From: Alphaproteobacteria bacterium
GTDB taxonomy: Bacteria > Pseudomonadota > Alphaproteobacteria > Micavibrionales > Micavibrionaceae
NCBI GenBank assembly: GCA_016125135.1
Contig: WGMJ01000018.1
Span: forward strand, 1 to 64,000
DNA length: 64,000 nucleotides
Reading direction: 5' to 3'
Numbering within the stretch: position 1 is the first letter of the stretch; every line of letters starts with the position of its first letter. The translations under genes and the position numbers were made by a program. Below the pieces are notes generated by a model. It was not told the origin of the DNA and made no database searches. It worked only from the letters and a program-made list of their open reading frames with translations. Shown one piece after another: positions 24,579-62,099 of this stretch.

Positions 24579-24660
24579 GGAAAGAGGATAAGAACTTATT
24601 GATTTTATATCAATAAAATGATTAATCTTTCGATCTCAAACGCCCCCACATAAAAGATAC

Positions 24661-24693
24661 ACAGGTGGCAGAGCGCCCGTTTGCGAAGCAAAC
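24661..24693 (+). repeat. Partial tRNA-Ser(UGA) 5' copy followed by a hairpin
   Basis: Bases 24661-24675 (ACAGGTGGCAGAGCG) repeat bases 24741-24755 of the downstream tRNA-Ser exactly, 80 bases upstream. They are followed by CCC and a perfect 6-bp hairpin with a GAA loop (GTTTGC at 24679-24684, GCAAAC at 24688-24693). Further on, GCGCTC at 24708-24713 could pair with GAGCGC at 24671-24676. The same arrangement precedes the other tRNA-Ser in the window. It cannot fold as a complete tRNA. Whether it is a decayed tRNA, a small mobile element or a leader structure is open. Confidence 0.6.
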
Positions 24694-24738
24694 AATTGAA
24701 TTAACAAGCGCTCTCTGCTAAACGGTTGTTTCAAGTAC

Positions 24739-24828
24739 GGACAGGTGGCAGAGCGGTTGATTGCAGCGGTCTTGAAAACCGCCGTGGGTTCACGCCCACC
24801 GTGAGTTCGAATCTCACCCTGTCCGCCA
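24739..24828 (+). tRNA. tRNA-Ser(UGA)
   Basis: The acceptor stem GGACAGG (24739-24745) pairs with CCTGTCC (24818-24824), followed by discriminator G and an encoded CCA. The anticodon stem GCGGT/ACCGC (24766-24770 and 24778-24782) closes a 7-base loop with TGA at 24773-24775. A long variable arm (GTGGGTTCACGCCCAC) and a TTCGAATC T-loop confirm the class II serine type. It reads codon UCA and related codons. A perfect terminator hairpin begins at the CCA end. Confidence 0.97.
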
Positions 24829-24866
24829 TTATAAAAACGCCCCTTTATGGGGCGTTTTTATAATGG
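24826..24866 (+). terminator. Perfect terminator hairpin after tRNA-Ser(UGA)
   Basis: An 18-bp perfect stem (24826-24843 with 24849-24866) closes a TTTAT loop. Its GC core GCCCC/GGGGC is flanked by A5 and T5 runs, so it can end transcription in both directions. It includes the encoded CCA of the tRNA. Confidence 0.9.
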
Positions 24867-61883: not shown

Positions 61884-61935
61884 TTTATTGACCTAACCCG
61901 TTAATATGTTTATCAATTTGGATCTATAGAGATAG

Positions 61936-61966
61936 GGCCGAGTGGCTGCCCGCCTGCGCAGCAGGC
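61936..61966 (+). repeat. Partial tRNA-Ser(GCU) 5' copy followed by a hairpin
   Basis: Bases 61936-61948 (GGCCGAGTGGCTG) repeat bases 62016-62028 of the downstream tRNA exactly, 80 bases upstream. They are followed by CCC and a perfect 6-bp hairpin with a GCA loop (GCCTGC at 61952-61957, GCAGGC at 61961-61966). Compared with the hairpin before tRNA-Ser(UGA) (GTTTGC/GCAAAC), two T-A pairs become C-G pairs, a compensating change. This supports a structured element rather than random decay. Confidence 0.6.
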
Positions 61967-62007
61967 AAAATAAAAACAGCCTTCAGCCTTTCTCAGTATT
62001 TTACGCT

Positions 62008-62099
62008 GGAGACGTGGCCGAGTGGCTGAAGGCGGCGGTTTGCTAAACCGTTATACGGGTAACACTGTATCGGAGGTTCGAATCCTCTCGTCTCCGCCA
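62008..62099 (+). tRNA. tRNA-Ser(GCU)
   Basis: The acceptor GGAGACG (62008-62014) pairs with CGTCTCC (62089-62095), followed by G and encoded CCA. The anticodon stem 62035-62039 with 62047-62051 closes a loop with GCT at 62042-62044. A long variable arm follows (ATACGGGTAACACTGTAT), then a TTCGAATC T-loop. It reads AGC and AGU. An integrase gene starts 152 bases downstream, so the 3' end is a candidate attachment site. Confidence 0.97.

Follow-up and report, generated by a model that had tools for sequence, protein, structure and literature searches.

Partial self-copies and a covarying hairpin precede tRNA-Ser genes in one family of α-proteobacteria

Introduction

As far as we know, the system nearest to the arrangement considered here is the tyrT locus of Escherichia coli, in which 178-bp repeats contain the 3' end of tRNA-Tyr (rtT RNA). 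In both cases tandem units lie beside a tRNA gene and each unit contains a piece of that tRNA, but in tyrT the 3' end is repeated, downstream of the gene, whereas the units described here carry the 5' end and lie upstream, possess a covarying hairpin and are found at the tRNA-Ser genes of several genera. T-box leaders, which precede genes for aminoacyl-tRNA synthetases or amino-acid genes and bind tRNA in trans, resemble our units in being cis leaders with alternative pairings that would involve tRNA sequence; they differ in that the leader here precedes the tRNA itself and carries its copy, and Rfam scans of the two units first analyzed (E up to 1) gave no T-box match. Rickettsia palindromic elements and REP/RAYT sequences are dispersed along the genome and share their sequence. 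As with these, we deal with short, imperfectly palindromic non-coding insertions, some of which lie in RNA genes, but here it is mainly the plan that is common and a single tRNA family that provides the site. In 7 genomes the pattern GTTTGCN{3,4}GCAAAC has 1-3 sites each, which is not the distribution of a dispersed repeat. Tandem tRNA duplications and tRNA pseudogenes likewise place extra tRNA sequence next to a gene, whereas our units retain just the first 11, 17 or 21 nt of the tRNA, with set end points, attached to a structured cassette. A search of the open-access literature, at the level of titles and the beginnings of abstracts, returned no earlier description of the unit, and Rfam gave no credible match for the two units scanned. 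The unit has the appearance of a type of tRNA leader not described before.

Results

Two Units in the Window

The DNA analyzed, hereafter called the window, is a stretch of 64,000 nucleotides from contig WGMJ01000018.1 of a member of the Micavibrionaceae. The initial annotation had reported a 15-base self-copy followed by CCC and a 6-bp hairpin upstream of tRNA-Ser(UGA), together with a stretch complementary to the copy, and all of these elements are indeed present (table 1). The copy, ACAGGTGGCAGAGCG, constitutes the 5' arm of the unit and lacks the first two bases of the tRNA. Predicted folds pair the region of the antisense stretch with the end of the copy, and six of its bases (CGCTCT) also complement nt 12-17 of tRNA-Ser(UGA) itself. 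The spacing of exactly 80 bases, which had been emphasized before, is correct as an offset in the window but is not a property of the class, since the copy plus insert varies between 59 and 88 nt among 21 units. The proposed likeness of TGCTAAACGGTT to the anticodon arm of the other tRNA-Ser looks accidental, because it is absent from the tails of other units.

Table 1. Positions in the window of the features of the units preceding its two tRNA-Ser genes
Locus	Feature	Position	Strand	Basis or remark
tRNA-Ser(UGA)	Weak promoter-like site TTGATT ... TAATCT	24599..24628	+	Script score 7/12; 32 nt 5' of copy
tRNA-Ser(UGA)	Copy ACAGGTGGCAGAGCG of tRNA nt 3-17	24661..24675	+	Exact match to 24741-24755
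tRNA-Ser(UGA)	CCC after copy	24676..24678	+	Sequence
tRNA-Ser(UGA)	6-bp hairpin GTTTGC-GAA-GCAAAC	24679..24693	+	Fold; covariation over 18 units
tRNA-Ser(UGA)	A-rich single-stranded stretch	24694..24707	+	Sequence; mostly A-rich stretch at same place in other units
tRNA-Ser(UGA)	Antisense GCGCTCT	24708..24714	+	Complement of AGAGCGC 24670-24676 (copy end and first C)
tRNA-Ser(UGA)	Tail, from antisense to tRNA	24715..24738	+	Sequence; conservation between units absent
tRNA-Ser(UGA)	Intact tRNA-Ser(UGA)	24739..24828	+	ARAGORN and Rfam
tRNA-Ser(GCU)	Promoter-like site TTGACC-17-TATCAA	61888..61916	+	Script score 9/12; 11 nt 5' of copy
tRNA-Ser(GCU)	Copy of tRNA nt 1-21	61928..61948	+	17/21 identical
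tRNA-Ser(GCU)	CCC	61949..61951	+	Sequence
tRNA-Ser(GCU)	Hairpin GCCTGC-GCA-GCAGGC	61952..61966	+	Covariation
tRNA-Ser(GCU)	A-rich stretch	61967..61978	+	Sequence
tRNA-Ser(GCU)	Antisense GCCTTCAGCC	61979..61988	+	Complement of tRNA-Ser(GCU) nt 17-26, across the end point of the copy
tRNA-Ser(GCU)	Intact tRNA-Ser(GCU)	62008..62099	+	ARAGORN and Rfam

The class is broader than the initial annotation had recognized, for it includes the second tRNA-Ser gene of the window, tRNA-Ser(GCU), which is preceded by the same plan with a different hairpin. Its copy is exact over nt 9-21 (61936-61948) and carries four changes in nt 1-8, and the 10-bp complement formed by GCCTTCAGCC was equalled in length by 0/300 shuffles of the tail. 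The CGA and GGA tRNA-Ser genes of the same genome show no such copy within 105 nt upstream. Taken alone, the unit before tRNA-Ser(UGA) folds no better than shuffled sequences (z of -1.24, with 24/200 shuffles equalling its energy, and z of -0.76 in a second folding computation), so that the case rests on the comparison between genomes; in its own genome this unit has one full match.

Distribution among Related Genomes

Searches of differing design, based on the hairpin, on the copy or on the nt-21 form, yielded 21 units that could be tabulated from 17 genomes. All precede tRNA-Ser genes, all four isoacceptors are represented, and every accepted unit belongs to the family of the window. The recurrence of the same plan before tRNA-Ser in other genomes indicates that the observation in the window is more than chance. 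The table of 21 units leaves aside G003 (copy to nt 13 and imperfect hairpin), G098 (no called tRNA), the decayed cases of G002, G121 and the GCU gene of G104, a possible and decayed case in G016, G080 (no tRNA after it in the stretch read) and one of the two identical units of G028.

Among 142 genomes of the order, CCCGTTTGCN{2,8}GCAAAC occurred at 17 sites, each in a different genome, versus 7 sites for the control; eight of these sites follow a copy of the start of a downstream tRNA (seven tRNA-Ser and one tRNA-Thr-like, in G098), and the other nine show no context of this kind. Searching independently of the hairpin, for a repeated GTGGC before tRNA-Ser, gave matches in 38/142 genomes, many of them due to chance, and revealed extra units with other hairpins, for example in G001, G099, G104 and G075. 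The nt-21 form was found at 10 sites in 9 genomes versus 1 control site, and nine of these sites (8 genomes) precede the start of a tRNA-Ser, the exception being G080; the nt-17 form was found in 3 of the 142. No comparable repeat was seen in any of the 142 genomes at tRNAs with a TAGCNCAG start.

Outside the order we searched for the nt-11 form alone. In combination with the GTTTGC hairpin it produced six records in genome_contigs (84,980 species), of which five are α-proteobacterial genomes already found (G004, G011, G036, G118 and G119) and the sixth is a planctomycetotal sequence without a called tRNA, and there was no match to this combination in viral contigs. A class-wide draw of 385 genomes, 381 of them outside the family of the window, gave 3 sites of the nt-11 form versus 9 control sites; one candidate from this draw (L246 of G187) has no clear hairpin and was not counted. 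On the basis of these searches the nt-11 form appears to be confined to the order of the window.

The frequency of the unit was estimated with a strict self-copy detector in 126 tRNA-Ser genes from 56 of 58 relatives, a sample drawn mostly but not wholly blind to the unit, given that the GCU gene of G001 came from the repeated-GTGGC search. Twelve genes were flagged, compared with a mean of 1.5 (maximum 5) in shuffled controls and 4 when the later part of the tRNA was used. We judged nine of the flags to be true and three false, namely G047, where the copy is a neighboring whole tRNA gene, and G025 and G006, which we attribute to chance. True units thus precede 9/82 tRNA-Ser genes of the window's own family versus 0/44 from other families, with the detector missing G003 and G002, both of which lie within the sample. 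Given such patchy presence within the family, the unit is not needed for tRNA-Ser. A looser self-copy scan was rejected, being swamped by chance (36/134 Ser genes against 7-23 in shuffles, and 9/38 non-Ser genes).

One case lies outside tRNA-Ser. Near a contig end, locus L079 of G098 presents the same kind of unit plus a second GTTTGC hairpin; the sequence that comes next begins like tRNA-Thr but is not called as a gene by ARAGORN.

Anatomy of the Unit and Covariation of Its Hairpin

From 5' to 3', a unit comprises the copy of the tRNA start, CCC, the hairpin, an A-rich stretch, often an antisense stretch, and a tail leading to the intact tRNA. The copy runs from approximately the first base of the mature tRNA to nt 11 (ten units), nt 17 (three) or nt 21 (eight). 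It is followed by CCC or a close variant, in which the first C is invariant and the other two are present in at least 90% of the 18 aligned units, and then by a hairpin of 5-7 bp with a loop of 3-4 nt; the hairpins of G075b and G099 contain a mismatch as aligned. The possibility of a decayed tRNA, raised in the initial annotation, fits these features poorly, since in all 21 units the copy stops at nt 11, 17 or 21 and then gives way to a hairpin in which pairing is kept. The Rfam tRNA model, moreover, does not reach either unit of the window.

Covariation was scored on the hairpin helix over 18 of the 21 units, omitting G104a as well as G001 and G005, which had been misplaced in the first alignment (G005 has 5 bp). 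In the hairpin columns 97.2% of the cells are paired, versus 24-44% in slid controls; cells changed on both sides number 21 versus 6.2 in shuffles, and the covariation score is 0.542 versus 0.215. Each of these three values was reached by 0/500 shuffles. Two further measures gave no clear excess: the hairpin pairs with two-sided change (4 versus 2.9, reached by 40/500 shuffles) and the further pair types (6 versus 7.4, reached by 484/500). Hence, on three of five measures, the hairpin shows compensatory change above shuffled and slid controls, as would be expected of a conserved, structured cis-acting RNA. The shuffle and permutation tests ignore the relatedness of the genomes, and so particular weight falls on the one genus with visible orthology, where G117 and G118 have alignable, orthologous nt-21 units whose hairpins differ at the base by G-C versus T-A. 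To judge from these alignments, the pairing of the hairpin is maintained by changes on both sides. The initial annotation had named absence from relatives, or a lack of covariation, as the outcome that would speak against the arrangement; relatives do carry the unit and its hairpin does covary.

Copy and Antisense in Relation to the Local tRNA

Over its first seven bases the copy matches the local tRNA at 6.5/7 positions on average, as compared with 4.9 for the tRNAs of other units, a difference reached by 0/20,000 permutations among 7 different acceptor sequences (19 of the 21 units, those with a full-length copy, the first units of arrays being compared with the next repeat). G118 and G010 illustrate this, for their acceptors differ and each copy agrees with its own tRNA. 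Such identity would mean that the copy is renewed from the tRNA, undergoes conversion or is required to remain identical. There is also a slight likeness between the 5' flank of the copy and the tail before the tRNA (4.4 versus 3.5 of 12 positions, with 125/20,000 permutations as high), much of which is due to G104a (12/12).

The sequence after the hairpin has a longest perfect complement averaging 6.0 nt to the start of the downstream tRNA versus 4.6 nt to the copy, the stretch of tRNA offered for comparison being the longer of the two. Its length surpasses that in shuffled versions of the sequence (p at most 0.05) in 9/21 units for the tRNA and in 4/21 for the copy. In nine of the 21 units, not all of them among the nine that are significant for the tRNA, the longest complement crosses the break point, and in several others, for example G075a, G117 and G028, the antisense is weak or missing.

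Predicted folds of unit plus tRNA were compared in 13 of the 21 units. On average, the 3' acceptor strand was paired with the copy at a probability of 0.59 and with the real 5' strand at 0.30, versus 0.64 and 0.16, respectively, when the insert was scrambled; this division indicates that the copy and the real 5' strand do compete. The natural insert clearly favors the real acceptor over scrambles in 4/13 units (G036, G099, G104b and G028), while scrambles are at least as good in G118b (59/60) and G119 (51/60). The idea that the insert neutralizes the copy by protecting the real acceptor pairing is consequently supported in 4/13 units only, and the mixed outcomes establish the unit neither as always harmless nor as always blocking.

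Promoter-like Sites and Turnover of Units

Promoter-like sites with a score of at least 7 lie upstream of the copy in 16/19 units and within the unit in 3/19, the scan having covered somewhat less sequence inside the units than upstream. Ten of the 16 sites before the copy end 5-30 nt from it. For comparison, such sites were found at 69/119 tRNA-Ser genes without the element and in 26/119 shuffled upstream regions. The simple reading of these positions would be that the former tRNA start survives in the copy, still next to its promoter, and that the unit forms an internal part of the precursor. The site before the first unit of the window is a match to consensus only, and a stricter scan reported no forward promoter at either locus of the window, including the two sites of table 1, so we take promoter-like sites as support and not as proof.

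Within one genus (G010, G119, G118 and G117) the promoter region can be aligned, and here G118 contains two units in succession, an nt-11 unit that G010 and G119 also have and then an nt-21 unit also present in G117. Whole units therefore differ at one locus within the genus, and the modules have apparently been gained or lost as a whole. Tandem units are found also in G028, which has two identical copies of 80 nt, and in G104, where two diverged units of ~65 nt form a duplication that includes 14 nt of 5' flank. A short terminator-like hairpin, GGCCC-loop-GGGCC followed by T residues, lies between promoter and copy at loci L101 (G010) and L081 (G119); neither G118 nor G117 has it in the alignment.

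Possible Origin and Function of the Unit

We tentatively favor, with confidence that stays somewhat short of even, a structured leader of pre-tRNA-Ser that arose by duplication plus insertion of a cassette and affects maturation through competing pairings. A cassette formed by CCC, a short-loop hairpin of 5-7 bp, an A-rich stretch and often an antisense would have come to sit after nt 11, 17 or 21 of a tRNA-Ser, with duplication of the sequence 5' of it, up to approximately the mature 5' end. With the 5' part present twice, the tRNA downstream would be left intact and the original 5' end would persist as the copy beside the promoter. We infer that the unit is transcribed and functional: it would form a 5' leader of 60-90 nt, longer when doubled, in which one 3' acceptor strand is contested by the copy and the real 5' strand, and the antisense has a choice of partners, the copy or the real D arm. 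The leader would thereby set the share of pre-tRNA-Ser whose fold permits maturation by RNase P. Units could be multiplied or removed through recombination between the duplicated starts of the tRNA.

The main rival is a tiny, non-autonomous palindromic mobile element with no function for its host, which we regard as somewhat less likely. Such an element would insert in the D arm of tRNA-Ser, with target duplication keeping the tRNA whole, and its hairpin and antisense would serve recognition or keep the insertion harmless. The patchy presence of the unit, its insertion at few points of one tRNA family, the tandem and neighboring units, the inclusion of 5' flank in the G104 duplication, and the recurrence of the GTTTGC hairpin sequence at genes for four Ser isoacceptors and, once, ahead of a tRNA-Thr-like start would all suit mobility. 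Yet this hairpin without a tRNA occurs at about the frequency of controls (9 versus 7 control sites in 142 genomes), and different places of one genome have different hairpins (G000, G075 and the two units of G118), with sharing limited to the tandem pairs of G104 and G028. Furthermore, the aligned units of related genomes compensate to keep their pairing, which a dead insertion would not need. The two other options of the initial annotation, a palindromic element targeted to tRNA and a leader folding against the copy, each contain part of the answer.

That the unit is a by-product of replication errors seems to us quite improbable. Tandem duplication or template switching would leave the copy, an inverted piece and the gene, with hairpins produced by fold-back and remnants that drift; a double template switch does yield a copy, an antisense piece and a gene in a row, matches of the antisense to the intact tRNA often extend across the break, and in G023 a tRNA-Ser gene is preceded by a plain, truncated copy of tRNA-Ser. 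The near-constant CCC plus hairpin and the covariation would remain unexplained, as would the bias to tRNA-Ser, since none of the 142 genomes has the repeat at TAGCNCAG-type tRNAs. The direct repeats of a part of the tRNA that flank the unit also recall the attachment site left over from an integrative element using the 5' part of tRNA-Ser, but units of 59-88 nt have no space for a gene between the repeats, and no integrase-bearing element was found there. Considering further that the copy follows each host's own tRNA instead of one fixed attP, and that the nt-11 GTTTGC form, the one searched, has no match in viral contigs, this origin is very improbable.

A more specific version of the leader reading, which we consider unlikely, is a switch at the tRNA level, with the leader acting as a decoy of the tRNA's own 5' strand so that pre-tRNA-Ser flips between two folds. 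In the fold competent for maturation, the real 5' strand would pair with the 3' acceptor strand and the antisense with the decoy; in the blocked fold, the decoy would occupy the 3' acceptor strand and the antisense the real D arm. The number of tandem units would then be a setting that evolution can change quickly. Should such a switch be real, we know of no earlier cis-acting, self-mimicking control of tRNA maturation in bacteria. Serine tRNA synthetase reads the long variable arm and the acceptor, not the anticodon. A unit active in the precursor would mean that in these bacteria a leader mimicking the tRNA itself sets the tRNA supply, and does so almost exclusively for serine tRNAs; a mobile unit would be a very small targeted insertion and would illustrate repeated invasion of a tRNA gene that nevertheless stays unbroken. 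On either reading the class has a clear signature that can be searched.

Other Features near tRNA Genes

A near-perfect inverted repeat of 18 bp lies directly 3' of tRNA-Ser(UGA) in the window (24829-24865) and is probably its terminator. On another contig of the same genome (locus L058, contig C20), a decayed tRNA-Leu-like copy is located ~180 nt upstream of tRNA-Leu(UAA); its start and anticodon region are recognizable and its acceptor arms are still complementary, with no T arm seen. The truncated tRNA-Ser copy of G023 (L027) spans approximately nt 1-43 and ends ~10 nt before tRNA-Ser(UGA), with its anticodon stem lengthened to 7 bp; it possibly reflects a different form of the process behind the units.
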